DNA of 64,000 bases from Jiangella alkaliphila (lineage in GTDB: Bacteria > Actinomycetota > Actinomycetes > Jiangellales > Jiangellaceae), in contig NZ_LT629791.1 in NCBI RefSeq assembly GCF_900105925.1, positions 868,001-932,000 of the forward strand. Reading direction: 5' to 3'. Below, piece after piece: positions 1 through 14,762 of the stretch. Both the position numbers and the translations under genes were made by a program. Under the pieces are notes generated by a model. The model was not told the DNA's origin, did not search any database, and saw only the letters and a program-made list of their open reading frames with translations. Each line of letters begins with the position of its first letter. Positions within the stretch are counted from its first letter, which is position 1.

Positions 1-1169
1 CGTCGGATCGGGTCGGTGACGTGCTGATATCGAGCCGCCATCGCTGTCGACGACCATCCCATGATGGACATGACCGTCCGCTCAGGCACGCCGAGGATCA
101 GCAACACGGTCGACGCCGTATGCCGGGCATCGTGCAGCCGACCGTCACGGACGCCGGCAGACTTCAAGAGCCGCTTCCACTCGTGGTAGTCCGTCCCCGG
201 TGCCAGCGCTGTCCCGTTTAGCTTCGCGAACACCCAGCCCTCGTCCTTCCAGCCGTCACCGGCGGCGGCCCGCTCGGCGTCCTGCTCCTTCCGGTGCGTT
301 TCGAGCAGCGCCACGAGCTGGGTCGGTAGTCCGACGACGCGGCGGCCGGCACGGGACTTCGTGTCCTTCGTGTCGGCGTTCACCTGGATCCGCTGCGGGC
401 AGTCGCCGGCCTTCTGCCGCCCGCAGGTTCCGTCGCAGCCGTGAGCGAACTTCGGCCGCAGCCGACTACGGCGGACACGTAGCGTTCCGGTCTTCAGGTC
501 GAGGTGCGACCACTTCAACCCCAGCGCCTCACCCTGACGCAGGCCAAGAGCCAGCGCGATCGCCCATCGAGCGCTGTTCCGGCGCTCACCGGCCACCTTC
601 AGCAGACGCTTCACCTCGTCGACGTCGTACGGCTCGACCTCGATCTCCTCGACGTTCGGAGCCTTCGCCTGCGTGGCTGGATTCGACGTCAGGTACTTGC
701 GTCGCACGGCCTCGTTCAGCGCGGCCCGGATCGTGCGGTGCACGTGGTGAGCCGTTCCCGCACTACGACCCTTCTCCTTCTGCATCACCGCGTACAGCTT
801 CTCCAGGTGCTCGGGCGCCAGACGTTCGAGGCGATGCTTCCCAACGCCAGGCACCAGGTGAACCTTGATGTCCCGGCGATACCCGTCGTGCGTGTACTCA
901 CTGATTGCCGGCGGGACGGCGATGTTCTCGATCCAGTGTGTAAGCCAGGTCTCGACGGTCCATCGATGGCCGGCCTTGCGCATGGCTCCGGCGTCGCGGT
1001 CCCGTTCGAGCTTGCGGACCTTGGCGATGACCTCGGCTTCGGTCTTGCCTCGCACGTGCCGGCGGTCCGGGGAGCCGTCGTCCTTGATGCCGACGGTGAC
1101 GCGGCCGTGCCAGTCGCCGTCCTTGCCAAGGTAGATGCTCGATGCGCCGTTGGGTCTGCGGGTGGCCAT
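1..1169 (-). CDS. int: Tyrosine site-specific integrase, C-terminal end beyond the window
   Basis: Catalyses integration of the AICE into its tRNA site and, with Xis, its excision. About 389 residues are visible. The N-terminal part resembles an AP2-like arm-binding domain (motif GDWHGRVTVG) followed by a SAM-like core-binding domain. The catalytic domain shows the first Arg in LGLRQGEALGLKW, the HxxR box in LHDARHTAST, and the later GW...ARYQH region that precedes the nucleophile Tyr. The fragment stops at window base 1, just after that region. The ATG overlaps the xis stop by one base (TGATG), so the two are translationally coupled. A zinc-ribbon-like Cys cluster (CDGTCGRQKAGDC) is inserted in the catalytic domain, as in other actinobacterial integrases. 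Confidence 0.92.
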   Translation of the reverse strand, partial: MATRRPNGASSIYLGKDGDWHGRVTVGIKDDGSPDRRHVRGKTEAEVIAKVRKLERDRDAGAMRKAGHRWTVETWLTHWIENIAVPPAISEYTHDGYRRDIKVHLVPGVGKHRLERLAPEHLEKLYAVMQKEKGRSAGTAHHVHRTIRAALNEAVRRKYLTSNPATQAKAPNVEEIEVEPYDVDEVKRLLKVAGERRNSARWAIALALGLRQGEALGLKWSHLDLKTGTLRVRRSRLRPKFAHGCDGTCGRQKAGDCPQRIQVNADTKDTKSRAGRRVVGLPTQLVALLETHRKEQDAERAAAGDGWKDEGWVFAKLNGTALAPGTDYHEWKRLLKSAGVRDGRLHDARHTASTVLLILGVPERTVMSIMGWSSTAMAARYQHVTDPIR

Positions 1170-1399
1170 CACGCCACCTGTCCCGTGGCTTGGGCCTGGC
1201 GCAGCTGGTCGGCGACGTATTCGCGCAGGCACTCCACCGGCACGCGGCGAAGGTAGCCGATCTTGATGGACCGAATCTGTCCACCCATGACCAGTGCGTA
1301 CATCGTGGTCCGACCGATGCGCAGGTACCGAGCGGCTTCCTCGATGGTCAGGACGTCACCAGCCGATTGGAGTTCGATCAGCGTCTCGTCGTCGTTCAT
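1169..1399 (-). CDS. xis: Excisionase, helix-turn-helix
   Basis: A 76-residue basic DNA-binding protein of the excisionase/MerR-like winged-helix type. The core motif LTIEEAARYLRIGRTTMY at residues 17-34 is the recognition helix region, followed by a wing and RRVPVECLREYV. It directs the integrase toward excision by bending attachment-site DNA. It sits directly between the replication gene and int, the conserved order of pSAM2-like elements, and its stop overlaps the int start. The start follows GGAACAGCCCGC, only a weak ribosome site, which fits coupling to the upstream genes. Family assignment is firm; the role follows from family and position. Confidence 0.88.
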   Translation of the reverse strand: MNDDETLIELQSAGDVLTIEEAARYLRIGRTTMYALVMGGQIRSIKIGYLRRVPVECLREYVADQLRQAQATGQVA

Positions 1400-1418
1400 G
1401 CGGGCTGTTCCTTCCATG

Positions 1419-2975
1419 TCACGCCGCCGGGGCAGCGGCAGGTCTTGCAGTTGCCGAAAGACCGAGCGCGATTGGGCCGGCGCGGGTCTTGGCGTCCTCG
1501 TACTGGGCTCGCCAGCGATGTTTCTGGGCGATGGCGTGCGCGATGAGCCGGGCATAGGTCGGTGCGTCGAGGTCGCCCGGCTTGGTCGTCGTCCAGACGA
1601 AGCGGGGCAGTCCGTCGGGCCCCGCGGCAGTTGCCGAAAGCTCGTCGTGGTCGTCCATCTCGACACCGGCTTCGGCCAGGACCGCACGAACGACGGCGGC
1701 ACGGTCGGCCCGGTGCTCGTCGAGGGTCTTCCCGGTCCACCGTCGGCTGACGAGGACGCGGCGGCCGCCGAGCCCGAGGTGGTCCCGGTCGTGCGCCTTC
1801 GAGGAGCAGCGACCGGGTTCCAGGCCTGCGCGAGGGTCCTTGGGTTGGATGCCGTAGCGGAGCCAGTTCGCGCACGTCGGCGAGCACGGCAGCCACCGGA
1901 CCTCTTCGGCGATCCGGTCGATGTGTGCACGCCTCGCCGCCGACGCGGGTGCCTCGCCATCGCCGTCGCCGTCGTCGTGGAGCGAGTCGGTGATCGACTT
2001 GGTCAGGTACTTCGTCAGATAGCCGATGACCCGATCCGCGAGCGGTGTCCCGGCGATGACACCTTGGATGTCGACCTGGGAACCAGCGCGGATCACGTGC
2101 GCCGGCCGGGCGTCCGGATCGTCGTCGATGCCGTCCAAGGCCTCATCCCAGAACGGCAGCACGGCACCGGTCACGGGGTCGGCGTAGGCCTCAGTGAGTT
2201 CGTCCCACACCGGCAGCGTCTCCGGGTCGGTATAGGCGGGCTCGTCGAGCTGCGGCCACCACACCTGGTGATACGTCGCCGCCACCACCTGACGGAGCAG
2301 CTTGCGCGGAACCGCTCCCCGGATCGCGGCGTGCAGGTGCGGTGCGAGGCGTCGTTGGGGTTCGACGGTGGCGAAGTACTGCACCGAGTAGCCGGTGGCA
2401 CGTCGGAGGTTCTGCCAGAACCGGTCCACCAGCTTCGGGAAGTGCATCGCATCCAGCGCCGCCCGCCGGTAGTCATACGAGCGCGGGTCGACCGGGACAC
2501 CCTCGCTGGTGACGCGTCCGTAGGACGGCAGAGTGAGGGTGACGAACATCGACGGCCGGTACGTCTTCCCGTCCCGCGCGGTGAACACTCGGCCGGTAGT
2601 GCGGTCCGACACCGAGAGCCGCGGAAGGTCCGGGGCATCCTGCCGCCGCCGTGTCGACCGGACTCGACGACCTGTCTCGTCGGCGTCCTCGTCGGCCTGG
2701 TCGTCGCCGTCGTCTCCTGCGACGTCGGGATCGGGTTCGGGCTTGGGTGGGTCCTCGGCGAGGTGCCAGCCCTCGCGGCACTGCTGAACCCGCAGCCGGC
2801 GCGCCGCATCAGCGCAGGACGGGCAGACCTTCGCGCGCGTGGCGCCGCAGGGCAGGACGACGGTCCGGACCGTGCCGGTGAGGGTGTCGGTGACGCGTTG
2901 CAGGATCGGCCGCACGCACACCCGTTCGGTGGCAGCGAGCTCACGCATCGTCGCGTCGCCTGGCAGGGCCGTCAT
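1419..2975 (-). CDS. repSA: RepSA-type rolling-circle replication initiator
   Basis: 518-residue replication initiator of the AICE. A Cys motif (CPSCADAARRLRVQQC, about residues 51-66) and an acidic linker precede the HUH endonuclease domain. Motif 1 is FVTLTL (144-149), the metal-binding HUH-type motif is PHLHAAIRG (212-220), and the catalytic Tyr region is GYLTKYLTKS (318-327), so Tyr319 or Tyr323 should nick the origin. A second Cys/His group lies near LPCSPTCANW. RepSA nicks the double-strand origin so that the excised circle replicates before transfer. The ATG overlaps the tra stop (ATGA). No origin is recognisable by eye inside or beside the gene, although origins of this family usually lie in or near it. 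Confidence 0.88.
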   Translation of the reverse strand: MTALPGDATMRELAATERVCVRPILQRVTDTLTGTVRTVVLPCGATRAKVCPSCADAARRLRVQQCREGWHLAEDPPKPEPDPDVAGDDGDDQADEDADETGRRVRSTRRRQDAPDLPRLSVSDRTTGRVFTARDGKTYRPSMFVTLTLPSYGRVTSEGVPVDPRSYDYRRAALDAMHFPKLVDRFWQNLRRATGYSVQYFATVEPQRRLAPHLHAAIRGAVPRKLLRQVVAATYHQVWWPQLDEPAYTDPETLPVWDELTEAYADPVTGAVLPFWDEALDGIDDDPDARPAHVIRAGSQVDIQGVIAGTPLADRVIGYLTKYLTKSITDSLHDDGDGDGEAPASAARRAHIDRIAEEVRWLPCSPTCANWLRYGIQPKDPRAGLEPGRCSSKAHDRDHLGLGGRRVLVSRRWTGKTLDEHRADRAAVVRAVLAEAGVEMDDHDELSATAAGPDGLPRFVWTTTKPGDLDAPTYARLIAHAIAQKHRWRAQYEDAKTRAGPIALGLSATARPAAAPAA

Positions 2976-4399
2976 GCCGTGGCCTCCTGCTCACTCGCCG
3001 ACTCATCCGCCGTTGCGTCCTCGGCAGGCACGGGGCCGGTGAGGTCGGCCAGGTCGCGGCGCAGCTCGGCGGTGCGGGTGGCGATCTGTTCGGCGGTGTG
3101 CTCGTCGACGTAGGGGAAGCGGACTCGTTCGAGCTGCCCGCCAGCGTCGGCGACCACGGCGACGCCGGGCATCGAGACCGGGATGTCGACCGGGGTCACC
3201 GCGGAGCCGCGGACGACGGGTCCGAGGATCGCTTCGGCGGCGTCGTCGGACAGCACCCGCCACGCGGTCCGCACGGACGCGTTGTCGCGGATCGCCGTGG
3301 GGATGGCATCGCTGGTCGGCTTCTGCGTCAGCAGGCGGGTGATGACTCCGGCAGAGCGGCCCTTCTTCACCAGCGCCGACAACCGGGCCGTGATCGTGGC
3401 CGCGACCGCCTTGGTGTCCTTGTCCATGCCCTTCTGGTCGGTGAACGTCTGCACCTCGTCGACGACTAGGAACACGGCCGGGTGGGCCGGGTCCAGCGGG
3501 AGATCCCAGAAGTTCGCCCGGCCGCGCTGGGTCTTCTGCGTCTTCAACCGCGCCCGCATCAGCCGGTGCACGGACTCGACCAGCTCGAGCACGACGTCCA
3601 GGTCTTCGTCCTCGTTCGTGTAGGCGGCGGCCCTGGGAGCGATCCAGGACCAGTCCTCGCCGCCCTTGCCGTCGATGACGACGTACTGCACGGCCGGGTT
3701 CTGGATCAGCCCGCACGCCAGGCTCGTTTCGCCGGCGGTCTTCCCCGAGCCGGGGACGCCACCGCCGACCTCGGCGGCGATGTTCGCGTAGTCACGGGTC
3801 CGCCATGACCCGTCCTCACCGACCGCGAACCGCACCGCCCGTAGATCAGTCACGGCCTCGACGTCGTGCAGCTCGACCGCATCGGCGAGCACGTCGCGTT
3901 CGACCAGGGTCAGTTCGACCAGGCCGGGGCCGGCCGAGGTCACCCGCACCGCTGGAGCACCGAGCGCGTGGGCGAGTTCGGCGGCCTGGCGTTCGAAGTC
4001 GCCTGGTTCCTGACCGGTGAGCAGCCGCACGTGCAGGACGTCACCGACCGGGCTATCGGTCACCCGCACGAGCCGCGGTGTCGTGAACTCGCCGGGGCGG
4101 CCCGGGATCGGGCGGTGCAGGCCGCAGGACTGCATGACCTCGGCCCAGCGCAGCCCGTAGGTCGTGCGGAGACGGTGCCGGGCGACCAGCCAGCCGACGA
4201 ACCGCCAGTACGACCACGGGTGTACCCACCGCCACAGCAGCGCGAGCAGCGGCGGACCGACCACCAGGAGCACGAGGCCGGCCCAGCCGTACGCGGCGAT
4301 CGCGAACACCGCCACCGCGGAGACGGCCAGGGCGCGTTTGAACCGCCAGGCCAGCTGGAGCAGCCACACGCCGGTCACGGCTTTCAGGAGCCAGGTCAT
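2972..4399 (-). CDS. traSA: FtsK/SpoIIIE-type DNA transfer protein (Tra)
   Basis: Membrane-anchored hexameric DNA pump that moves the double-stranded element between mycelial cells. 475 residues from the ATG chosen because it overlaps the upstream stop (ATGA); a longer reading frame upstream has no support. Residues about 20-57 form two membrane segments. The P-loop is GGGVPGSGKT (212-221), with the Walker B strand AVFLVVDEVQ further on. The basic tail is short and the C-terminus is Glu/Ala-rich. The gene is fourth from the 3' end of the telescoped operon. It resembles TraSA of pSAM2; the symbol is given by analogy. Confidence 0.87.
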   Translation of the reverse strand: MTWLLKAVTGVWLLQLAWRFKRALAVSAVAVFAIAAYGWAGLVLLVVGPPLLALLWRWVHPWSYWRFVGWLVARHRLRTTYGLRWAEVMQSCGLHRPIPGRPGEFTTPRLVRVTDSPVGDVLHVRLLTGQEPGDFERQAAELAHALGAPAVRVTSAGPGLVELTLVERDVLADAVELHDVEAVTDLRAVRFAVGEDGSWRTRDYANIAAEVGGGVPGSGKTAGETSLACGLIQNPAVQYVVIDGKGGEDWSWIAPRAAAYTNEDEDLDVVLELVESVHRLMRARLKTQKTQRGRANFWDLPLDPAHPAVFLVVDEVQTFTDQKGMDKDTKAVAATITARLSALVKKGRSAGVITRLLTQKPTSDAIPTAIRDNASVRTAWRVLSDDAAEAILGPVVRGSAVTPVDIPVSMPGVAVVADAGGQLERVRFPYVDEHTAEQIATRTAELRRDLADLTGPVPAEDATADESASEQEATA

Positions 4400-4623
4400 C
4401 GCGCCCACCAGTCCTGGGTCTGGCCGCCTCGACCACGCGTGGTCGGGTTGGTTCGTGGCATCGGGGTCACCTCGGGAGCAGATGTCGTGAGCGCCATGTG
4501 GCGGGCGTGCGCGGCGGCGTGGCAGCCGGGGCACAGCCGTTCACCGGTGGCGGGGTAGAACCAGGCCTCGGCCGCCGTGACGAGGCGTGGGCAGCGTGAG
4601 CAGTCCACGAGAGCCGTGATCAC
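4396..4623 (-). CDS. Small zinc-ribbon-like AICE protein
   Basis: 75-residue protein starting at GTG (GTGA overlap with the stop of the gene before it). It carries a probable four-ligand metal site: CSRCPRL near residue 8 and LCPGCHAAAHARH about 24 residues later. The remainder is low-complexity and polar. Overlap at both ends (GTGA upstream, ATGA into tra) shows it is translated as part of the transfer operon. Tiny Cys-rich proteins are usual between spd genes and tra in these elements, but no function is known. Too short to assign to a family by eye. Confidence 0.72.
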   Translation of the reverse strand: MITALVDCSRCPRLVTAAEAWFYPATGERLCPGCHAAAHARHMALTTSAPEVTPMPRTNPTTRGRGGQTQDWWAR

Positions 4624-4808
4624 GGTGTGGCCTTGGTTCGCCAACGCGGAGCTGTGCGCGTGGGCCGGCGGGTGGCCTTCTTGCAGCCGTCGCACGGCGT
4701 CTCGGGCTGGTGAGCGCGGGTTCGTCCGCAGACCGGGCAGGGAAAGGAGTACGCCGCCGCAGTGACGTCGAACGGGAGCACGCCGAACAGAACCGCGTCG
4801 CCGTTCAT
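4620..4808 (-). CDS. Small Cys-rich AICE protein
   Basis: 62-residue protein with a zinc-knuckle-like pattern CPVCGRTRAHQPETPCDGCK in its centre and a basic C-terminus (RRPTRTAPRWRTK). The ATG overlaps the stop of the preceding membrane-protein gene (ATGA) and its own stop overlaps the GTG of the next gene, so it belongs to a translationally coupled chain. A longer minus-strand frame covering both small genes exists, but the overlap geometry and the paired Cys motifs favour two separate proteins. Function unknown; a nucleic-acid-binding accessory role in transfer is a guess from charge and position. Confidence 0.7.
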   Translation of the reverse strand: MNGDAVLFGVLPFDVTAAAYSFPCPVCGRTRAHQPETPCDGCKKATRRPTRTAPRWRTKATP

Positions 4809-4969
4809 GTCCGGTCACCACACCGGTCGACGGCGGGCGTCTCGGGCTCGAACGTGCGGTCCATCTCGGCGTCGACGGAGGCGACCACCCACGGGGCGAC
4901 GATCAGCAGCAGGACCGCGACGAGCGCGTAGACGGCGAGCGGGAGCTTCCACGAGGTAGGTTGGGACAC
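4805..4969 (-). CDS. Short single-span membrane protein (spread-gene position)
   Basis: 54 residues from a GTG that follows GGAGGGG by six bases; an in-frame ATG at 4984 would add five residues but lacks a site. One membrane helix is clear (LAVYALVAVLLLIVAPWVV, about residues 11-29), followed by an acidic tail containing the single Cys. The stop overlaps the next ATG. In AICEs, short membrane proteins upstream of tra are often spread (spd) functions that help movement along hyphae. That role is inferred from position and topology only. Confidence 0.65.
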   Translation of the reverse strand: MSQPTSWKLPLAVYALVAVLLLIVAPWVVASVDAEMDRTFEPETPAVDRCGDRT

Positions 4970-5003
4970 ACCAATCCCCTCCATTCGGGGGTGTTGATTG
5001 GGG

Positions 5004-5049
5004 CCACCGGGGACGGGCGGTTTCCTAGGCCTTGACCCGTCCCCGGTGG
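5004..5049 (-). terminator. Large inverted repeat, likely terminator or mRNA hairpin
   Basis: A perfect 14-bp stem, CCACCGGGGACGGG at 5004-5017 and its complement at 5036-5049, encloses an 18-base loop. It lies just after the stop of the 5054-5584 gene and just before the start of the short membrane-protein gene. It could end or attenuate transcription between the regulatory and transfer parts of the operon. No U-tract follows, as is common in actinobacteria. Confidence 0.6.
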
Positions 5050-5053
5050 GGAC

Positions 5054-5584
5054 TCATCGCGAGACGGCAGCAACCTCGCCGTTGATCGCGTCGCTCACTG
5101 CGGCGAGCTGGATCACCAGCGCGTCGTCACTAGCGACCGGGTAGACCCACGCGGGTAGCTGGGCGTGCACGATCGCCAGCCAGTCCGCCAGGACCGCGGC
5201 GCCGCGCTGGTCGAACGACACGTCCATCGGGGACCAGGCCACCCGGCCACCGAGCGTGGCGACCAGGCGAACGAGGTTCTTCTCCCCGCTGGACATGACG
5301 CCGAACGCGTGCGCGATCGGGGTCGACTGCGGGCCGGCGTCCTGCCACCGGTAGAACGCCACCTCATCCGATGGCGCCGGGTGACGGCGCTCGTACTCCA
5401 CCCACGCCACTCCGTCAGCGTCGCTCTCGTTGACCGCCCGGGTGACGACGTCGAGCCAGTCCTCACGCAGGATGAGCGGGCCGGTGATCCGCTCGACCAG
5501 TTGCCGCACCCACGGATGCCGGCCCGCGAGCCAGTCCGCCGCTCGCCACAGGTCCGAGGGCGCCTTCGCTGTCATGTCGGCCAT
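5054..5584 (-). CDS. AICE protein of unknown function
   Basis: 176-residue soluble protein, unrecognised. It is Trp-rich (DLWRAADWLAGRHPWV near the N-terminus, DWLAIVHAQLPAWVYPV near the C-terminus) and has no membrane segment or catalytic motif visible. It lies three bases after the pra-like gene on the same strand and before the hairpin at 5004-5049, so it is co-transcribed with pra. An internal ATG nine bases in (MTAKAP) is an equally good start. AICEs commonly carry a conserved gene of this size here; its job is not known to me. Confidence 0.72.
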   Translation of the reverse strand: MADMTAKAPSDLWRAADWLAGRHPWVRQLVERITGPLILREDWLDVVTRAVNESDADGVAWVEYERRHPAPSDEVAFYRWQDAGPQSTPIAHAFGVMSSGEKNLVRLVATLGGRVAWSPMDVSFDQRGAAVLADWLAIVHAQLPAWVYPVASDDALVIQLAAVSDAINGEVAAVSR

Positions 5585-5587
5585 GGG

Positions 5588-6067
5588 TCAGCCGGCCTTC
5601 TTCTCGCTGGCCTTGGCCGCGTCCTGCGCCGTCCCGTCGGGTCGTCCGACCGGGCGAGTGGTGTCACCGGTGCCGGGGTGCTTGACGCCGCTGGCACGGT
5701 ACTCGTACCCGAGGAACTTGAACTCGCCCTGACCCATCACCTTCGGCGACGCCGTCAACCCGACCAGCTCCACCGGCCGCATCCCCGGCAACACCTCATC
5801 CGGCAGCGGCGCCGGCTGGACCTCGGCGGTGAAGATGACGTCGAACGACGCCCGCTTCGCCTTCTGCTCATCCGGATCGGTCACGGTACCGCGCCACTGC
5901 CGCTGCTTCGTGATCTCGTCGACCAGCTGCCGCGCCTCACGGCCGCGTGCCCGGTCCTCCTGAGACACGTACTCCAGATCCGGTTCGATCTCACCGATCA
6001 GCACCAGACCCCGCGGAAACGCCTCGACGAACTCCACCGGGAACCGGTGGCCTCGCTGTAGTGCCAT
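5588..6067 (-). CDS. pra: Pra-like activator of replication, integration and excision
   Basis: 159 residues from an ATG preceded by AAGGAG. The sequence follows the pattern I associate with Pra of pSAM2-type elements: an N-terminal FPRGLVLIGEIEPDLEY, a central D-PDEQKAKRASFDVIFTAEVQP, and PVELVGLTASP before the C-terminal GYEYRASGVK. In pSAM2, Pra activates int/xis/rep expression and is repressed by KorSA. The context agrees: it is the first gene of the minus-strand operon, directly downstream of a promoter covered by palindromes and opposite a GntR repressor. The C-terminus is polar and Lys/Ala-rich. Identification is from sequence memory and context, so moderate. Confidence 0.7.
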   Translation of the reverse strand: MALQRGHRFPVEFVEAFPRGLVLIGEIEPDLEYVSQEDRARGREARQLVDEITKQRQWRGTVTDPDEQKAKRASFDVIFTAEVQPAPLPDEVLPGMRPVELVGLTASPKVMGQGEFKFLGYEYRASGVKHPGTGDTTRPVGRPDGTAQDAAKASEKKAG

Positions 6068-6115
6068 GCCATGCTCCTTGCTCGCTTGCTGGGCGGACGG
6101 GACCACCCTTGACTA

Positions 6116-6214
6116 ATAGAGGTACCTCTATAGAACAGTTCGTTGCGACACATGTCAATAGAGCTGGCTCTATAGCCCGACTGTCGTGCAGACGATGAGT
6201 AGAGGTACCGTTAT
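6116..6214. promoter_or_regulatory. Operator cluster and pra promoter, likely bound by the GntR repressor
   Basis: Three related palindromes lie between the divergent pra-like and GntR genes. ATAGAGGTACCTCTAT (6116-6131) is perfect. ATAGAGCTGGCTCTAT (6158-6173) has one central mismatch. A half-conserved GTAGAGGTACCGTTAT lies at 6199-6214. On the minus strand a good promoter reads TTGACA (6158-6153), 18 bases, TCTATA (6134-6129). The first palindrome overlaps its -10 and the second abuts its -35. This fits a KorSA-type repressor shutting off the transfer operon, with the third site for autoregulation. Confidence 0.75.
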
Positions 6215-6234
6215 CCGCTCAGGAGGTGAACGCC

Positions 6235-7002
6235 ATGGCCACCGGCTACCGCGAGCTGGCCGATGTGCTCCGAGCCGCGATCTTGCGCGGGGACTACCCC
6301 GAGGGCTCCACGCTGCCCAAACAAGACGAGCTGGCGACCGAGCACGACGTGAACGTGAAGACGGTACGCAACGCCGTCTCGCTGCTGGCAGCGGAAGGGC
6401 TGGTGACTCCGGTCCGGCGACGCGGCACCGTCGTTCGCATCCGGCCGCCGATGCAGCGGCTCGGCGCTGCGCGGTACGCCAAGAGCAAGTGGAAGTTCGG
6501 TGACCTCGTCGCCTTCGCCGCCGACCGTGAGGCTTCCGGCCGGCCGTGGAAGTGGACCGACCAGACGCAGACCGTTCAGCAGGTGCCGGCCGACCAGGAG
6601 ATCGCGTCCGCCCTCTCGGTGCCGGTCGGTTCGACCGTCTACGAGCGCGCCCGGCTCGTGAAGGACGAGGGGACACCGACGCACACCCTCACCAGCTACT
6701 ACCGCCCCGAGGACGTCGAGGGAACGCCCATCGTCGACCCGACGCCTGGACCCGCTGGCCGGGGAGGCGGGTACGCAGTGCTCACAATGCAGGGCCTGGA
6801 GCCGCACGAGATCGCGGAGACCTTCTACGCACGCATGCCCACACCCGACGAGCGCGAGACGCTGGAGCTGCCGGCCGGCGAGCCAGTCATGATTCTTCAG
6901 CGAGTCACTACCACCGAGTCTGGCAAGGTGGTCGAGTTCGCCCGCGGCGTGCACTCAGCCTCGCGGTTCTCCTGGAGTTACAAGTTCAAGGTGCCCGACT
7001 AG
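6235..7002 (+). CDS. korSA: GntR/HutC-family repressor (KorSA-like)
   Basis: 255-residue transcriptional repressor. The N-terminal winged helix (residues about 1-70) contains the GntR signature LPKQDELATEHDVNVKTVRNAV, and the rest is a UTRA-like effector domain ending in ARGVHSASRFSWSY. ATG chosen because AGGAGG lies eight bases upstream; a GTG nine bases earlier sits inside that site. KorSA of pSAM2 represses pra and itself, keeping the element integrated. Here the gene is divergent from the pra-like gene with three palindromes between, exactly that arrangement. The ligand that relieves repression is unknown. Confidence 0.85.
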   Translation: MATGYRELADVLRAAILRGDYPEGSTLPKQDELATEHDVNVKTVRNAVSLLAAEGLVTPVRRRGTVVRIRPPMQRLGAARYAKSKWKFGDLVAFAADREASGRPWKWTDQTQTVQQVPADQEIASALSVPVGSTVYERARLVKDEGTPTHTLTSYYRPEDVEGTPIVDPTPGPAGRGGGYAVLTMQGLEPHEIAETFYARMPTPDERETLELPAGEPVMILQRVTTTESGKVVEFARGVHSASRFSWSYKFKVPD

Positions 7003-7019
7003 GTGAGCAGCTGACAGCC

Positions 7020-7685
7020 ATGAGCGCTGAACGACCGGGACTCCCCGACGACGTCATGGAGGACGCGCAGATCCTGTGGGACTACCACCAGCTCCACCAC
7101 GAGTTGCGCACCACCGACGTCGGCATCGGCCTCGGCAGCCATGACCTCGGCGTCGCCGACCACACCGCGGACCTCTACCACCGCGGCATGTTCCCGCTGA
7201 TCGTGTTCACCGGCGCCAACGCACCGACCACCGTCGATATCTTCCCGGACGGCGAAGCAGTCCACTATGCCCGGCGAGCCGTCGAACTCGGCGTGCCGGC
7301 AGACGCGATCCTGGTCGAGCCAAGCGCCACCAACACCGCCGAGAACATCACCTTCACCCGACAGCTGCTCACCGAGCACGGCATCAGACCACAGGCCGTC
7401 ACTCTCATCAGCCGGCCCTACCAACAGCGCCGCGCCTACGCCACCTGCCGCAAGCAGTGGCCCGAAGTCGACGTCAACTGCTCATCGAAGCCGCAGACCT
7501 TCCGCGACTACCTCGACACCATCGCCGACGACAGCCGCGTCATCGACATGCTCGTCGGCGACACCCAACGCATCACCCTCTATGCCGAGCGCGGCTACGC
7601 CCTTCCGCAGCCCATACCCGCATCGATCCAGCGCGCGTACGAGCACCTAATTCGCCTAGGATTCGACTCCCGCTTAGTGACCTAG
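7020..7685 (+). CDS. YdcF/DUF218-family protein
   Basis: 221-residue cytoplasmic protein of the YdcF/ElyC (DUF218) fold. Typical features are GIGLGSHDLGVADHTADLY near residue 40, the central strand PLIVFTGANAP, the ARRAVELGVP helix and the conserved Ser/Asn-Thr-Glu-Asn box PSATNTAENITF. No membrane segment is present, unlike ElyC. The family binds SAM or nucleotide-like ligands and its activity is unclear. It begins 18 bases after the GntR stop and is likely co-transcribed with it. In pSAM2 the corresponding slot holds the Nudix gene pif; this protein is unrelated in sequence. Confidence 0.8.
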   Translation: MSAERPGLPDDVMEDAQILWDYHQLHHELRTTDVGIGLGSHDLGVADHTADLYHRGMFPLIVFTGANAPTTVDIFPDGEAVHYARRAVELGVPADAILVEPSATNTAENITFTRQLLTEHGIRPQAVTLISRPYQQRRAYATCRKQWPEVDVNCSSKPQTFRDYLDTIADDSRVIDMLVGDTQRITLYAERGYALPQPIPASIQRAYEHLIRLGFDSRLVT

Positions 7686-7712
7686 TTACATGCGCCGCAG
7701 AGCTTATTCGGC

Positions 7713-9203
7713 CTACCAGTGATCAAGGTCAAACGGATCAGAGTCCGCATCTACAAATTCCATAAACCGCGTAACCAACCGGCGCCCCACAACGGCGGTC
7801 GCTTGCGTGAAGGCCAGGGCCGCGGCCTCAGCGCTAGCGAGCTCCCAGGGGTACGGCCCATCTTCAGCAATCGTCCCCGGGATCAACTCCCGGACCCGAA
7901 TCGCCTGCTCTCCACGACCATAGATCACAGGCAGTCTCACGAAAGAAACTCGATCGCCATCAACAATAAGATAGATTCCGAGATAGACATGCGAGTCTAG
8001 GTGTGATCCAGGCCCACTCCGCCAAGCTATCGCCACAAGAGCGGGCGAATTAGCCGCCAGACTGAACGGCTCAATCTTCCGATCTTGCAAGAAGTCGACG
8101 TCACCCGAGTCGATTAGTTGCGACATTGGGGACCCAGCGCTAGAAACGTCGATACCAAGCTCACCGCCACTTGCCTCGCTGAGGCGCATCAAATCGCCGT
8201 GCAGGAGCTCATCTAGACTGCGGTGCATCATGGTTCCGATATCATCGACGCGCGCCCGCAGTCTCCTCGTTCGATCCGCTTCGGCACGCCGAGCATCTGC
8301 GCTGCGGCGCTCAGCTAAGCGTGAGGCCACGGCCAAAGCTTCGGCAAGGTCCTGTCGATCCTGATGTGCTGGCAGGTCCGAGGCTCCAGAAAGTATTTCG
8401 GAAATAGTATCCAGCTCATGCAGAACGACGGCCCAATCGGCGAGCCGAGCGCGAGGATCGGTATCTAACAGCCGCGCGAATAGCTCGTTTAAGCCCACTA
8501 ACAGGGGCACTCCAGTCACGCTCTCGATCCGATATCGCCGATCAATCTGCGCCTCACGAGCCGGTGGATTCGTGGCCGCGAGAATCGCCCAGGCGAGCTT
8601 CGCCCATGCATAGAAGTCAGCAGGTCGCTGATCAATCCCATCAGCGATTCCCGATTCGTTCTCGGGTGCTATGTAAAGCCGTGAACCAATCGCCTCGGCG
8701 GTCGCTGTTAACCGAACGCTCTCCTCGATGCTCAGGCAAAGCCCAAAGTCCGCCAAGAGCGGCTTGCGACCGTCAAGTAGAATATTCGATGGCTTTACGT
8801 CACGATGCGCGTAGCCTCGCTCGTGCAAGGCACGAAGGGCCGCGGCCACATCGCGGACGAGGTCGATGCCATCTTTTACACCCAGCGCTTCGGCTTCCGG
8901 CCCGACGAATTTCTGCAACGAACCCTCCATGTACCACGGCATCACAAACCACGGCCGCTCGATCGCCAGGTCTTGATCGACTATGGGCGGCACAGGCAAG
9001 GCGTGATCCGCGAGCCTAGCCATCGTCTCGACTTCACGTCTGAAGCGCTCGCGCCGGGCGGGGTTCTTGAGGCGCTTCAGCGCGTAGCTACGTCCGGCAT
9101 CCCCACGCCTTGAGACCTCATAGACCCACGCCTGGCCAGACTCGTTCAGCGCACCTCCGGCGACTCTCGGCCAGTGCTTTGGCAGCCCCATGGATACCCC
9201 CAC
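7713..9203 (-). CDS. Ser/Thr protein kinase with a C-terminal unknown domain
   Basis: 496-residue protein. The kinase domain spans about residues 10-285: a degenerate glycine loop, the ATP Lys in YALKRL (Lys43), catalytic loop HRDVKPSN (133-140), DFG (152-154) and the APEN box in place of APE. All residues needed for phosphotransfer are present. A charged coiled region (RLAERRSADARRAEADRTRRLR) leads to a C-terminal domain of about 150 residues that I do not recognise. No transmembrane helix, so unlike PknB-type receptors. The GTG start follows GAGGA by seven bases and lies three bases after the stop of the Ntn hydrolase gene, so the two form one unit. An ATG at 9191 is possible. Confidence 0.85.
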   Translation of the reverse strand: MGVSMGLPKHWPRVAGGALNESGQAWVYEVSRRGDAGRSYALKRLKNPARRERFRREVETMARLADHALPVPPIVDQDLAIERPWFVMPWYMEGSLQKFVGPEAEALGVKDGIDLVRDVAAALRALHERGYAHRDVKPSNILLDGRKPLLADFGLCLSIEESVRLTATAEAIGSRLYIAPENESGIADGIDQRPADFYAWAKLAWAILAATNPPAREAQIDRRYRIESVTGVPLLVGLNELFARLLDTDPRARLADWAVVLHELDTISEILSGASDLPAHQDRQDLAEALAVASRLAERRSADARRAEADRTRRLRARVDDIGTMMHRSLDELLHGDLMRLSEASGGELGIDVSSAGSPMSQLIDSGDVDFLQDRKIEPFSLAANSPALVAIAWRSGPGSHLDSHVYLGIYLIVDGDRVSFVRLPVIYGRGEQAIRVRELIPGTIAEDGPYPWELASAEAAALAFTQATAVVGRRLVTRFMEFVDADSDPFDLDHW

Positions 9204-9206
9204 GTG

Positions 9207-10019
9207 TTAGTCCTCTAGTGCGGTCATCTCCCGCACCGAGTAGAATCCCTTCGCGGGATCGAATATAGGTAGGCTGTTCCTCTCTCCTTGCTGCAAGGGT
9301 CGGCCAGCGAAGTGCGGAGTTGATACGCCATTGCAACTCCACATCAACTGGAAAAGCTGTGTATTCAAGTGTTTATATACTTTCCCAATCTGAGGGACCC
9401 CGCCGATACCTGGATAGCGCTCATCCCCTGTGATCTCGCACAGGATCTCGAATGGCTCCATGTCGATATTATTGCCATCGCGATCACGCTCTCGAAGTAG
9501 CAGCCTTGTTCGCCTAATGGCGTCCACGACCGCTTGCTTATTGTCTCCGGAGAAGAAGAATTTCGATTCGTTGGCGCCCAGCAGTCGACGGAAGATGAAG
9601 CGTCGATTCCCCGCGTCGAACGCCAGCCTCCACGCCTTGAATTTATCGTCTTGCCAATCATAACCCCCGAGCAAGAAGTAGTTGTCAGGCTTATCTGGGT
9701 GGCGCTGACCCACTGGCAAGGAGTGGATGGCGTCATAGGTTTGTTGAAAAACACGCAACGTGTGACCCTTTAACTTGGAAAGCGGAAGGCGGCGACTGGA
9801 GCTAAACGGGTAGTTCTCAATAGCCCTCTGCATCTGCATCAAAAGTGGGTACGCCCATTGAGTGTCGCCGGCGAACGCTATCAATGCATCCGATCGGCCA
9901 AGTTGAAAGACCTTCTGTGCGTGATCCAACGCCTGACCACCACTCAATCGACTGTCGGAGGCAATCACCAGCTCGTAATGCGAGAGTACGCGTCGCAGAT
10001 AGACGGTTAGCAGTGTCAC
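9207..10019 (-). CDS. Proteasome/HslV-like Ntn hydrolase
   Basis: 270-residue protein whose N-terminal half reads like a proteasome beta or HslV subunit. A Thr follows the initiator directly (M-T-L-L-T), then the hairpin strand VIASDSRLSGG with the Asp of the catalytic triad, QKVFQLG with the Lys33 equivalent, IAFAGDTQWAYPLL like the HslV FAGGTADA segment, and a later GGYDWQDDKFKAWRLAF strand pair. Met removal would expose Thr2 without a propeptide. The hairpin before the Asp is about four residues longer than usual. The GTG start follows AGGAG by six bases. The C-terminal 100 residues are unrecognised. Next to a kinase, it suggests a phosphorylation-linked protease or amidase, which is inference. 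Confidence 0.68.
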   Translation of the reverse strand: MTLLTVYLRRVLSHYELVIASDSRLSGGQALDHAQKVFQLGRSDALIAFAGDTQWAYPLLMQMQRAIENYPFSSSRRLPLSKLKGHTLRVFQQTYDAIHSLPVGQRHPDKPDNYFLLGGYDWQDDKFKAWRLAFDAGNRRFIFRRLLGANESKFFFSGDNKQAVVDAIRRTRLLLRERDRDGNNIDMEPFEILCEITGDERYPGIGGVPQIGKVYKHLNTQLFQLMWSCNGVSTPHFAGRPLQQGERNSLPIFDPAKGFYSVREMTALED

Positions 10020-10327
10020 AGATGGCTCCTAGAGTTCTGCACCCCTCAGACCGCGTAATCTAGCGCAAATACACCGCCAACGGCTCATCTAGGAATGAAC
10101 GGTCCCGCGGATGCTTCAGGTCCACGTCGGTGCGCGCGTCCGCCCGCGATCGTCCAGCCCTGCTGAGGCGCTGCCGGCGTCACCCACCAACGGTCCGCCG
10201 CAAGCATTGGTCCCCGGTCCGTGGCATCGCATTCATCGCCCGATACCAGAGTCACTGACGCCATTGCCATGCCTTGCCACGACGTCCGCGCCGTGCATTG
10301 CCGGACTGAGCTATTGAGGATCAAGCC

Positions 10328-10453
10328 GCGCGCTGCGCGCGCCGTGCCCGCCCGGCCTCCGGGCCGGGCGTGCGGCCTGGCGGCCGTTCCGGGCCCTGTC
10401 AGCCGGCGGGCACGTTTCACGTCCGGCATCAGCTCGCCGAGCTGCTTCGGCAG
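10328..10453. other. Hairpin-rich non-coding segment in AICE cargo
   Basis: Within the gene-free stretch 10020-10626 this part holds several perfect hairpins. GCGCGC-TGC-GCGCGC lies at 10328-10342; a 9-bp stem with loop TCCG at 10349-10370; CAGCTC-GCC-GAGCTG at 10430-10444; and CTGC-TTCG-GCAG at 10442-10453. A longer-range alternative pairs CGTGCCCGCC (10343-10352) with its complement at 10405-10414. Reading frames through it are arginine/alanine-rich and look like shadows. Bases 10020-10327 show nothing I recognise except the Ntn gene's ribosome site. Confidence 0.5.
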
Positions 10454-10468
10454 CCCACGGTTGGGGGA

Positions 10469-10601
10469 CGTCGTCCTCATAGCGGCCATTCTCTGGCCTC
10501 CGCTCCACGCCTCAAGGGCGCCTTCGGCGTCACTACGTGATCGCTACGCGACCCTTGACCCACTCCGCTTCAGCCAACGACCGGCTGCTATGAGGACGAC
10601 G
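10469..10601. ncRNA. Putative structured element: outer stem enclosing a contiguous cloverleaf
   Basis: A perfect 15-bp inverted repeat (CGTCGTCCTCATAGC at 10469-10483, complement at 10587-10601) closes the element. Inside, GGCCA-TTCTC-TGGCC forms a hairpin at 10484-10498. At 10512-10558 a 7-bp stem (TCAAGGG/CCCTTGA) encloses three 4-bp hairpins with loops TTC, TAC and TAC at 10519-10529, 10530-10540 and 10541-10551. There is no unpaired base between any of these four stems. It could be an RNA, a cruciform recognised as DNA, or the remnant of a small mobile repeat. The structure is read directly; the class is unknown, so the ncRNA label is provisional. Confidence 0.45.
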
Positions 10602-10626
10602 CCTCAGGCTGAGGGCCTTCAGACAC

Positions 10627-11070
10627 TCATACCCCCACGAGAGCCGAGCCTGTCACCAACCTTGCCGTCACCGCGTGCCATTGAGGCTTTCGCTCGCTAC
10701 GTACTAGTGCTTCTGTCCGAAGTGACCCGTGAGCCTGATCACGTGGTAGTTGAACCTCCACTGGGTCTTCTATCACACCAGAATGCGTGGTCCGGGCCAA
10801 TGCTGCCGTGAACTGTGCCAGAAAATGAGTCTCCCGGTCGTACAGATCGTCCAGGGCAAGTCCGTGTCGTAGAGCGAGGAACCATAACGAGACGGAGCAG
10901 CCGTCGCCGTCTCGATAACGGAATACCCCTGGGGCGAGCCCGGGCTCCTTTGTGGCGGTATCTGGCGCGATCAGATTTGAGTCAGTGCGGGAAACACGAT
11001 GATATATAAGCTCATCATCTGCAATACTCGGGTGATCCCAGACCCAACCGACTTCATCAGGCTCGTTCAT
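10627..11070 (-). CDS. Third gene of a TIGR04255-linked cassette, unknown function
   Basis: 147-residue soluble protein without a recognised catalytic motif. It starts with an acidic, Trp-containing segment (MNEPDEVGWVWDHPSI), then LIYHRVSRTDSN, GVFRYRDGDGCSVSLWF, a helical ALRHGLALDDLYDRETHFLAQFTAALAR, and ends with IEDPVEVQLPRDQAHGSL. That order (start region, SV-strand, helix, DP...AH) resembles small proteins often found near TIGR04255-type genes, as far as I recall. It overlaps the 3' end of the middle gene by 14 bases, so the three genes form one operon. Codon use is less GC-rich than in the AICE core. Confidence 0.65.
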   Translation of the reverse strand: MNEPDEVGWVWDHPSIADDELIYHRVSRTDSNLIAPDTATKEPGLAPGVFRYRDGDGCSVSLWFLALRHGLALDDLYDRETHFLAQFTAALARTTHSGVIEDPVEVQLPRDQAHGSLRTEALVRSERKPQWHAVTARLVTGSALVGV

Positions 11071-11647
11071 GGAACAAATCTCGCCAGCCGGGATTCATTC
11101 GCTCAGTATCTTTATACACCTGCCCTAGCGCAATTTTCAGCTCGCGCCGTGGGAGCGAGGCGAAGCTACCCTCACATGTAACCTCGCCGTCGCTCTGGGC
11201 GATACGAACGTAGATGTTCCCGAACGATGGGACGGCGATATAAACAGTTCGGCCATTCGCCCGCCAGAAGAGGACCACATCACCATCGTCGACGCTCATA
11301 TATGGGTAGATACTAAGAGGCGGCAAGACCAAGCGCGCGACGGCAATGGCTCGATGGGTCGCCCGATCCGCCTCGTGATCCTCGCGAGCGAGTGCTCGGG
11401 AGACAAGCCGCATATACCTAAGCGTCTGTTCGATATTGGATGTGTCATCCTTAAAGGGTTCGTCCCACGTGCTAGGCAGCTCTTGCACCTTCTCGTTGGT
11501 CGCCGGCCGAGCGTGCCCGTGTACATATGAGTTTCGGAACCGATTTAGCAACTGATCCCGGTCGGGAGGCGCTTCTGTTGGCTGAACCTTGCTTGAAGGA
11601 AGCCACTCTTGCTGATTCTCGCATAACTCGTCGTACGCAACACTCAT
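11057..11647 (-). CDS. Middle gene of a TIGR04255-linked cassette, unknown function
   Basis: 196-residue soluble protein, unrecognised. The N-terminal 70 residues are polar and probably flexible (SSKVQPTEAPPDRDQLL). The C-terminal half has a beta-rich pattern, DGDVVLFWRANGRTVYIAVPSF then NIYVRIAQSDGEVTCEGSF, that looks like a compact domain. No catalytic motif, membrane segment or signal peptide is visible. Its start overlaps the stop of the TIGR04255-type gene by four bases (ATGA) and its end overlaps the next gene, so all three products are probably made together and may form a complex. Confidence 0.65.
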   Translation of the reverse strand: MSVAYDELCENQQEWLPSSKVQPTEAPPDRDQLLNRFRNSYVHGHARPATNEKVQELPSTWDEPFKDDTSNIEQTLRYMRLVSRALAREDHEADRATHRAIAVARLVLPPLSIYPYMSVDDGDVVLFWRANGRTVYIAVPSFGNIYVRIAQSDGEVTCEGSFASLPRRELKIALGQVYKDTERMNPGWRDLFHERA

Positions 11648-12474
11648 GCCCGCCGCCCCCAGACCTCGTGCATCTTATCCGAACTCGATTTCAGGAACTC
11701 TTCAATGATGTAACCGTGTGCGCGCGCCAGTAGCTGCTCAACGGTCACCTCATTGTCGTCACCCCTAAAGCTTCTTGCGATCACCGTAAGCTCAGTACCC
11801 CCCTCGGCAAGCGGATCAAGTTCGAGCGCCACGTCATCCGACATCGGCACACGATCCACCTCAATGTCCCGACGGTATCGAATTCCGATGTAGACCGGGT
11901 CCGCCAGGGCGGGACTAACGGCCTCATCAATCTGCCACCCTGAAACCAATCCAGTCAGATAGTCCGCCGACGCGATCTGTGGAATCTCGTTGCGATAGTT
12001 GAGCTGCACATGCATTACACGAATCTCATTCCCCGATTCGCTTAGCACAGCGCCTAGCTCTTGATACCGCTTAAGAAGTTCCTCTCGCAAGGCTGGAAAG
12101 CCCGGGTAGGCCGTGCCTTCATTGCCGGATTCGAAACGCCATAGAACCTCAAGGCGGTCCGCCTGAAAGCTGACCATTCGACCAGATCGCTCATTAGAAT
12201 ACATAAGATATGGAGCGGGCCAGAAAGGACTGTCTTCGTCGTGCTCCGCGTTATAAATGCGTGGTTCAGGTGGAAATTCAAGAACGATTGGATAGTCACC
12301 TAAAAGGTTCTGGCCAAACTTCAAGAAGAGAGTGGATGACACTCTCGAAGAAGTAGTAAATCCGACGGTAATGGTCACGTCTCGAATTGGCGGGTCCGAG
12401 AACTCGACAGACTCGCCCGACTCGGTGCCCCCCGACACGTCATGCGTCGCCATAACCGGAGCGTACCCAACCAT
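11644..12474 (-). CDS. TIGR04255-family protein
   Basis: 276-residue protein that fits the sporadic TIGR04255 family, as far as I can judge from pattern: an N-terminal FSDPPIRDVTITVGF strand, a central VSFQADRLEVLWRF strand pair, and a C-terminal helix LLARAHGYIIEEFLKSSSDKMHEVWGRR, the usual ending of the family. The role of the family is unknown; its members are patchily distributed and often sit on mobile DNA. The gene begins a three-gene overlapping operon. ATG at 12474 is used; an ATG 21 bases later (MATHDV) is also possible. Lower GC than the AICE core suggests separate acquisition. Confidence 0.62.
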   Translation of the reverse strand: MVGYAPVMATHDVSGGTESGESVEFSDPPIRDVTITVGFTTSSRVSSTLFLKFGQNLLGDYPIVLEFPPEPRIYNAEHDEDSPFWPAPYLMYSNERSGRMVSFQADRLEVLWRFESGNEGTAYPGFPALREELLKRYQELGAVLSESGNEIRVMHVQLNYRNEIPQIASADYLTGLVSGWQIDEAVSPALADPVYIGIRYRRDIEVDRVPMSDDVALELDPLAEGGTELTVIARSFRGDDNEVTVEQLLARAHGYIIEEFLKSSSDKMHEVWGRRA

Positions 12475-12728
12475 GACGAGGTTGGCTACGACCTAACTGA
12501 TCTTCGAACCACATCAGAGATCGTGCCCACCGGCCAGGATGACGCACGGCCTAACACAGAAGACGGTGCCATCACCGGCGCACGCCGCGCGTGTTCGCCA
12601 CGCTCTTGACATGCACTGACACGGCCACGTGCGGAAGTGGTCCTGCTCCCGGGTTCCCACGATGCCGCCTGTGGCCAGTGCAGGGGCCTTGGACCCGCCA
12701 CCACGACAGCCGCCCATGTGTCAGCTGA
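12475..12728. other. Gene-free stretch upstream of the TIGR04255 cassette
   Basis: About 250 bases separate the start of the three-gene cassette from the end of the antitoxin gene. I see no credible gene, strong hairpin or tRNA here. The short minus-strand frames through it have arginine/threonine-rich shadow composition. It presumably holds the promoter of the minus-strand cassette near 12480-12540, but no clear -10/-35 pair is recognisable. Confidence 0.4.
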
Positions 12729-13070
12729 TTACCTGACGGTGATGCTGTGGCCGGGGAAGTCCGCGACGATGCGGATGCGACCGCCGAGGGCAGCGACGTA
12801 GCGACTGATGGTGTCGACCTCGGTGCGGGTGAGGTCGCCCCGCTCGATCTCGCTAACGCGCTTCTGGCTGACGCCCATGTCGCGGGCGACCTCGGTCTGG
12901 GTGCGGTGCTGCTCGCGCCGGATCTCGGCCAGGCGGTACGCGGCTTCCTCCGCCTCCAGCTCGGCACGTGCCTGAGCCACCGCGGCCTCGTCAACGTTCA
13001 GCTTCGCGCGGGTCTCGGCCCACGTCGGCCAGCGCGCAGTGCTGGTCGTGGTCTCGATCTCCTGAGTCAT
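12729..13070 (-). CDS. higA: XRE-family antitoxin (HigA-like)
   Basis: 113-residue protein. A Glu/Ala-rich coiled region (about residues 15-60) is followed by an HTH_3 domain: HRTQTEVARDMGVSQKRVSEIERGDL, with the recognition helix in SQKRVSEIE, and a C-terminal strand GGRIRIVADFPG. This layout is typical of antitoxins paired with HigB/RelE toxins encoded just upstream. It starts eight bases after the toxin stop on the same strand, the inverted toxin-first order of hig loci. It should neutralise the toxin and repress the operon. ATG at 13070 chosen over the longer frame because the preceding residues overlap the toxin gene. Confidence 0.82.
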   Translation of the reverse strand: MTQEIETTTSTARWPTWAETRAKLNVDEAAVAQARAELEAEEAAYRLAEIRREQHRTQTEVARDMGVSQKRVSEIERGDLTRTEVDTISRYVAALGGRIRIVADFPGHSITVR

Positions 13071-13078
13071 CTCGCCGC

Positions 13079-13429
13079 CTACGCCTTTCCCTCGTCGAGC
13101 ATGGTCAGCCACTCGTCGTATCGATCGTCCGCGAGCGGGACGGACGCCTTGTACCAGCGCTCCCAATCGCCTCGCTTGTCGCCGGCCACCAGGAGGATCG
13201 CGGCGCGCCGTGGATCGAACACGAACAAGATCCGTACCGTGCGCGCACGCAGCTCCTTCATGTTGTGGTGCCGGCTGCCTTTGATGCTGTCCACCGTCGG
13301 TCGCCCCAGTGCAGGCCCGTCCTCGGTCAATCGATCAATGGCTGCGGTGACGGTCACCGCGGTCGTTCCAGACAGGCCCTCCAACCACTTGGCGACCTCC
13401 GGGTGTTCGTGAATCACCCAGGCACCCAT
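13079..13429 (-). CDS. higB: HigB/RelE-superfamily toxin
   Basis: 116-residue basic protein of the phage-derived Gp49-like/HigB type. It begins WVIHEHPEVAKWLEGL, continues with GRPTVDSIKGSRHHNMKELR, then VRILFVFDPRRAAILLVAGDK and ends WYKASVPLADDRYDEWL. The central RILFVFDP and ILLVAGDK strands are the usual RelE-fold core. Such toxins cleave mRNA on the ribosome. With the adjacent antitoxin it probably stabilises the AICE. The start follows GTGAGG on the minus strand. Confidence 0.82.
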   Translation of the reverse strand: MGAWVIHEHPEVAKWLEGLSGTTAVTVTAAIDRLTEDGPALGRPTVDSIKGSRHHNMKELRARTVRILFVFDPRRAAILLVAGDKRGDWERWYKASVPLADDRYDEWLTMLDEGKA

Positions 13430-14528: not shown

Positions 14529-14699
14529 GCGACTAACTGATGAGGCAGATCCCGCCACCAGGCGGACCACGAGCCCGCCGCTCTGGTCTCAGTTGTGGTC
14601 TCATTCGGGTATGTTCAGGCCCGTCCATAGCACAAGAAGGTGCTACCCATCGTCTGCAGGTCGGACGGTTCTGGATACAGACAAATGCCTGGTCACGGG

Positions 14700-14756
14700 C
14701 TTGGAAAGCGTGTTGGGAGCAATCCCTCAGGGGTTCGAATCCCCTATCCTCCGCCA
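14700..14756 (+). other. Attachment site: 3' fragment of tRNA-Ser(GGA)
   Basis: The sequence matches the 3' half of a serine tRNA: anticodon loop CTTGGAA with anticodon GGA, the 3' anticodon strand AGCGT, a long variable arm (GTTGGGAGCAATCCC), T-arm AGGGGTTCGAATCCCCT, acceptor strand ATCCTCC, discriminator G and encoded CCA. The 5' side does not fit: the bases before the anticodon loop cannot pair fully, and no GGAGGAT acceptor strand lies within 100 bases upstream. This is the direct-repeat copy left at one end when an AICE inserts into a tRNA gene. Confidence 0.8.
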
Positions 14757-14762
14757 TGTGAT

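Follow-up and report, generated by a model that had tools for sequence, protein, structure and literature searches.

In the analysed window, a stretch of 64,000 nucleotides from the 7.7-Mb chromosome of a Jiangella species, we found a predicted proteasome-like N-terminal-threonine (Ntn) hydrolase that belongs to an uncharacterised, horizontally moving family and that appears to have moved, together with a Ser/Thr protein kinase, as one cassette between Jiangella elements. The explanation we favour, tentatively and with less than even confidence, is that this protein, as a self-sufficient threonine enzyme, hydrolyses or ligates specific proteins, is moved as immune cargo and stands here under or beside a kinase. 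Methionine aminopeptidase would remove the first Met, and the Thr would then be the N-terminal nucleophile, with neither a propeptide nor a dedicated AAA+ partner. The enzyme would cut or ligate one or a few specific proteins exposed by infection or other stress. Usually it would be a self-sufficient single gene, which the Jiangella element may have coupled to the Ser/Thr kinase; the latter would mark the substrate or the hydrolase and gate its action, and the pair would form part of an anti-invader cargo cassette of an AICE. The features of this element are as follows (window coordinates, except for the integrase).

1419-2975, minus strand: RepSA replication initiator (PF20199, E 1.4e-94)
2972-4534, minus strand: TraB/FtsK-like DNA translocase, motifs recognised by eye
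6546-7685, plus strand: ORF whose residues 203-308 match DUF218; the left edge of slot A lies at the 3' end of this ORF
7601-10298: cargo slot A, an apparently recombining cassette with the hydrolase and kinase genes and no other recognised gene
7713-9203, minus strand: Ser/Thr protein kinase, 496 amino acids, GTG start, kinase domain at about residues 20-255
9207-10019, minus strand: predicted proteasome-like Ntn hydrolase, 270 amino acids, GTG start, with Thr2, Asp22, Lys36 and Gly51
10299-10612: AICE spacer separating the two cargo slots, conserved in part among other Jiangella elements
10613-12735: cargo slot B, with ORFs 11057-11647 and 11644-12474 (both minus strand), the latter a TIGR04255 protein
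14699-14757, plus strand: att repeat, an exact 58-bp copy of the tRNA-Ser(GGA) 3' end
L056:7923-9233, minus strand: candidate tyrosine integrase, 436 amino acids, recognised by eye only

The candidate integrase, RepSA, the TraB-like translocase and the 58-bp repeat delimit a predicted AICE of about 15 kb. The sequence-only reading had taken the gene pair for AICE cargo, and this is borne out by the RepSA-type initiator and by integration at a tRNA gene with a direct repeat, the tRNA-Ser(GGA) gene lying just left of the window (G000 867759-867846). The translocase was assigned by motif, its match to NCBIfam TraB (E 4e-4, 19 bits) being far under the cut-off of 800. RepSA, the TraB-like protein, the tRNA att site and variable cargo are shared with pSAM2-family AICEs; variable cargo, including R-M systems, was described for AICEs in a Streptomyces study (PMC9513070), in the accessible text of which neither “kinase” nor “defense” occurs. 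GC content is 0.56-0.64 across 7-13 kb as against 0.65-0.76 in the remaining 1-kb bins. In J. alba, a related element starts beside tRNA-Ser(GCT) (L038 near 8621-8843) and has no 58-bp tRNA-Ser(GGA) repeat, thus sister elements may use different tRNA-Ser genes.

Alignment with the J. alba element revealed that slot A (7601-10298) is 97.9% identical (57 differences in 2698), whereas the backbone (1001-7600) is 86.0% identical (921 differences in 6567), a difference with a Fisher p of 6e-82 if sites are taken as independent. To the right, 10299-10612 is 86.4% identical and most of 10613-12735 is unrelated. Homology to the window ends at 7601 in G003, at 7591 in G008 and at 6068 in G010, three genomes with sibling elements, and parts of 10299-10612 reappear in all three. 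The jump in identity and the breaks in homology thus mark 7601-10298 as a cargo slot and suggest that the pair was recently exchanged between elements of two Jiangella species. Only three bases (9204-9206) separate the stop codon of the hydrolase gene from the GTG of the kinase gene, as had been read from the sequence before, and both genes are open in both species. For the hydrolase, dN is 0.003 and dS 0.056, consistent with purifying selection between the two species; for the kinase (dN 0.015, dS 0.050) the constraint looks looser. A search of 7400-13000 against Rfam gave no match at E ≤ 0.1. The spacer region (about 330 bp, window 10280-10616), which divides the two cargo slots, has inverted repeats recognised by eye and recurs, whole or partial and with some 72-89% identity, across many genomes of the Jiangella family; it may aid cargo exchange by homologous recombination.

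The ORF of the hydrolase, with AGGAG upstream seen by eye, opens GTG-ACA and thereby encodes Thr as residue 2, followed by Asp22 within SDSRL, Lys36 within QKVF and then FAGDT, so that each of the marks listed in the sequence-only reading (Thr right after the start codon, Asp in a DSR strand, Lys in KVF, FAGDT) is present in the translation. A MAFFT alignment was made of 121 sequences, the window protein and 120 relatives listed of 180. Thr2 directly follows the start in all 111 rows that reach this position (gap in 10 rows), which leaves no propeptide; Asp22 is found in 118 of the 121 rows (Thr, Ile and a gap in the other three) and Lys36 in every one. In a second alignment, of a divergent clade (121 rows, one query and 120 listed of 736 relatives), each of the three residues occupies 119 of 119 non-gap rows. 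Since they are conserved across the 121-row alignment, Thr2, Asp22 and Lys36 are not a matter of chance, and the earlier assignment, for which a lack of their conservation would have been fatal, stands. The predicted structure has a proteasome beta-like fold, and equivalents of Thr1, Asp17 and Lys33 are conserved together with an oxyanion Gly, as in proteasome-like Ntn hydrolases; catalysis by the exposed Thr is predicted accordingly. Profile matches are weak: PF00227 scores 18.6 bits against the window protein, under its curated cut-off of 22.4, and matches 10 of 68 members of the hydrolase alignment A1 at E ≤ 0.1. PHROGs gave no match to the window protein and a weak one to an HslV family in 4 of the 68 family members.

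The protein differs from the described members of this fold. Identity to 20S proteasome beta subunits (archaeal, actinobacterial PrcB) is 9-16% among the matches listed, and in contrast to these the window protein has 270 amino acids, no propeptide and no alpha subunit recognised beside its gene; elsewhere in the host genome, at 4581543-4582912, a canonical PF00227 pair is encoded. Of the weak sequence matches, the best is to HslV (E 0.0025 for the A1 profile against 4hnz), which shares the FAG-T motif, but the window protein reaches 12.7 bits where the NCBIfam equivalog cut-off is 137, and no HslU-type AAA+ gene was found among the 20 ORFs scanned with Pfam in window 200-22214. With Anbu, BPH, connectase and the 22 new proteasome-like families of bacteria and archaea described by Fuchs, Alva and Lupas (2021; PMC8665760), it has in common the proteasome-like fold and the Thr1/Asp17/Lys33 equivalents, and, as described in the main text of that paper, the homologues are likewise without propeptide, sparse and partly phage-borne. 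The long insertions reported there after H1/H2 (PHI, PMI-3, PMI-4) and between H3/H4 (PMI-2 to PMI-6) are absent from our model, in which the corresponding loops have 16 and 10 residues. According to the same main text, few functional clues were available and no genomic context pointing to function was found. The word kinase is absent from it, in agreement with the earlier statement that no such hydrolase was known to be encoded with a kinase.

The window kinase matches Pfam Pkinase with E 4e-20. Its gene has GAGGA upstream of the start (by eye), and the protein carries HRDVKPSN, DFG, an APE-type motif and YALKRLK, which we take to be the kinase motifs of those names; the description “active-looking” in the sequence-only reading thus holds for the motifs. 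The domain (about residues 20-255) appears intact and PknB-like. The J. alba kinase is 97% identical. For residues 255-496 we found no relative outside the J. alba cluster among 7997 scored candidates, namely those sharing most words in a search that detects only relatives with shared 5-residue words, and an AF2 model built from two sequences had a pLDDT of 37.4, too low for interpretation. PADLOC models for PD-T4-6 match the kinase domain (best E 4.7e-29, covering query 19-225), a likeness to single-gene Ser/Thr kinase defences, and several other PADLOC kinase models match the same domain only. Because these matches rest mainly on the kinase domain, they do not classify the protein, which differs from PD-T4-6 in its C-terminal part, outside the best match, and in the attached hydrolase.

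Relatives of the hydrolase were taken from 17 genome contigs, 8 viral contigs, 8 plasmid-collection records and further genomes. The family is sparse: it occurs in 2 of 148 near relatives, 2 of 396 genomes of the phylum, 4 of 393 of the class (two of them Jiangella, one a further clear case and one a fragment of doubtful status), 7 of 397 of a flavobacterial family (three of these being a distant sister family) and 2 of 390 of an alphaproteobacterial order, all counts including the centre genome. Among 22 genomes of the order, our own included, the hydrolase was found in two (E ≤ 0.001) and the kinase in the same two (E ≤ 1e-30). Outside Jiangella, the closest relatives (P0004-P0017) are 57-65% identical; one comes from Oerskovia turbata and most of the others are metagenomic. 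A survey of loci other than those of P0004-P0017, with the window kinase as phmmer query (E ≤ 10) and a scan for motifs, detected a kinase-like ORF in none of the 33 relative loci first read, a set in which L023 duplicates L012 and the copies in L032 and L060 are broken, while the J. alba control matched. None was found either in 9 further loci (L085-L091, L064, L040), of which L090 duplicates L005 and L087, L088, L089 and L091 represent a more distant sister family. Flanks are short in L002, L003, L008, L017 and L022, where a kinase further off is possible. As no kinase was seen at the loci of relatives that were read, a conserved two-gene system is unsupported and was rejected; in the readable loci homologues are rarely adjacent to a kinase, an outcome that the sequence-only reading had named as refuting it, and the pairing is known from two Jiangella genomes only.

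These data bear on whether the two proteins work together at all. It is nearly as likely as our favoured explanation that the kinase is an unrelated passenger, the two genes being independent cargo with a common operon and transfer, no joint function, and a hydrolase that acts alone. The loci without a kinase and the confinement of relatives of the kinase C-terminus, among the 7997 scored candidates, to the J. alba cluster speak for this alternative, as does the lack of a codirectional ORF within 30 bp in 28 of 33 deduplicated loci (L023, L032 and L060 taken out; L064, L085 and L086 put in). The 3-bp spacing nevertheless suits translational coupling, both genes are open with dN below dS in both species, and the cassette limits take in both genes and little else.

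Of the five loci with a codirectional ORF within 30 bp, two are Type I R-M operons and two are prophage tail modules, the latter recognised with Pfam and PHROGs; in the fifth, the ORF is a HEPN-like gene. Neighbour ORFs (80 amino acids or more) were picked by script, which may miss or invent genes in GC-rich DNA, and those scanned (14 of 218, plus 7 from later loci) were taken by choice, without a random-gene control. The relative in L013 lies 3 bp after a HEPN_RiboL-PSP-like gene that scores under the Pfam cut-off, and the one in L015 follows an Abi_C gene at 150 bp; some scanned neighbours (DUF4238, DUF1612, phage tail) are not defence-like. On contig L025 (6486-14013), which comes from the viral collection, hsdM is followed by a 142-aa gene, hsdS, hydrolase and hsdR, the hydrolase gene starting 3 bp after hsdS and overlapping hsdR by 4 bp; in L086 (2437-9952; genome G1044 of the flavobacterial family) the order is hsdM, hsdS, a 107-aa gene, hydrolase and hsdR. 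The two HsdR are 73% and the two HsdM 72% identical, and we therefore consider these operons copies of one type rather than two separate gains. With identities of 40% for the hydrolases and 32% for HsdS, the arrangement has persisted while HsdR and HsdM changed more slowly than the hydrolase. With the L025-type protein as query, 736 relatives were obtained at E ≤ 1e-3, none of the 120 listed having a Pfam domain, and among 198 genomes of the class this type was found in the centre genome G1044 itself only. In the open-licence literature searched, we found no report of this hydrolase with Type I R-M, and a paper on EVE/DCD proteins in R-M contexts (PMC7641849) contains neither “proteasome” nor “Ntn” in its main text.

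A broader reading is possible, although doubtful: the family would be an immune protease or ligase that serves as a module in anti-invader operons of unrelated kinds (a Ser/Thr kinase here; elsewhere Type I R-M, ahead of hsdR, and HEPN-type and Abi_C-type genes), and by cutting a specific protein it would control these operons or carry out their action. If so, regulated proteasome-type proteolysis would be a general add-on of bacterial immunity. One proteasome-like family now has neighbourhoods that can be tested, the kinase in a recombining AICE cassette and the Type I restriction operons, and if the hydrolase proved necessary for restriction or for the effect of the kinase, such enzymes would gain a role, and proteasome-type proteolysis a place in bacterial immunity.

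Prophage copies of the gene raise another alternative, which we regard as unlikely, that phages and elements carry the protein for proteolysis outside defence, either in clearance or in virion maturation. In an alphaproteobacterial prophage (L012, 9275-15309), the relative is followed closely by genes for a tail terminator, minor tail and tape measure, and L022 and L028 are tail modules with the same gene sizes and order; moreover, the fold has matches among viral protein models, 14 of them at E ≤ 0.001, and proteasome-like phage proteins are described in the main text of PMC8665760. Eight IMG/VR contigs match the hydrolase family, single-protein queries having given none and one, and none of 50,697 phage records matched the hydrolase or the L025-type protein. 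The copies in Type I R-M operons are hard to account for by such an enzyme, no virion gene was recognised among the scanned ORFs of the AICE, and the host has its own PF00227 pair.

The cargo of sibling elements was assessed with PADLOC on six chosen proteins, two each from G008, G003 and G010, which are part of the cargo ORFs. Matches were an MmeI-like Type IIG enzyme in slot A of G008 (1121 bits), a PifA-like KAP NTPase in slot B of G003 (E 1e-56) and an ApeA/PDC-S58 HEPN protein in slot B of G010; the other three proteins, including one slot A protein each of G003 and G010, had no match. The Pfam assignments are concordant, with a PP2C-like phosphatase in slot A of G010 as a further one. 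By analogy, the defence genes in sibling cargo make a defence role for the slot A contents plausible at most. In J. alba, slot B holds an XRE/ImmA-IrrE-like gene (by eye). In the window, slot B contains an overlapping pair (11057-12474): the TIGR04255 protein, which scores 30.9 bits where the cut-off is 30, and a protein of 196 amino acids.

Some of this context points to defence; the anti-phage or addiction role suggested in the sequence-only reading remains an inference. Of the two, addiction is quite improbable. In this scenario a toxic kinase would be removed or inactivated by the hydrolase, or the reverse, and the AICE thereby stabilised; kinase toxins such as HipA exist, and the two genes share a mobile element with a HigB-like Gp49 gene (window 13079-13429, PF05973 E 1.6e-18), located in a stretch common to sibling elements. 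The usual antitoxins, however, are smaller than a 270-aa hydrolase, and outside Jiangella no kinase accompanies the hydrolase in the loci that were read.

The explanation of a self-sufficient hydrolase or ligase moved as immune cargo draws on the predicted fold, the conserved active site without propeptide, purifying selection on the hydrolase and transfer of the cassette, in addition to the Type IIG, KAP/PifA-like and ApeA-HEPN genes of sibling cargo and the relatives in Type I R-M operons or near Abi_C and HEPN-like genes. It has to be set against a kinase pairing seen in two Jiangella genomes, the 28 of 33 loci without a close codirectional ORF, a PADLOC match for slot A in one of three siblings (G008), the close relationship of the two R-M operons and the relatives in tail modules. 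Furthermore, the hydrolase matches no PADLOC model at E ≤ 1, and the hydrolase is more tightly constrained than the kinase.

Several relatives have other surroundings. A SIR2-like gene (L064:5730-6890, genome G678) lies about 1.7 kb ahead of one. Proteins of the sister family (L087, L088, L089, L091) start with MTLIISW, MTLLSSW or MTTIAAQ and have SDSR or PDSR and a Lys; their neighbours include a metallophosphoesterase-STAND gene (L088) and a gene in L089 that was taken by eye for AbiJ-like, an identity rejected as Pfam assigns a PLD-like domain. In two Klebsiella plasmids (L031:1963-6834 and L060), the relative is located downstream of two GTPase genes, one annotated as dynamin-like, and in one of the plasmids an IS5-like transposase lies in between and the hydrolase relative is split. 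Finally, a relative with 34% identity is present in 126 of 5426 E. coli genomes, always on the chromosome and with 99% identity or more to the query copy; four of the E. coli copies (L034-L037) occupy one site beside a tyrosine recombinase, and the annotated CDS is shorter than the match.
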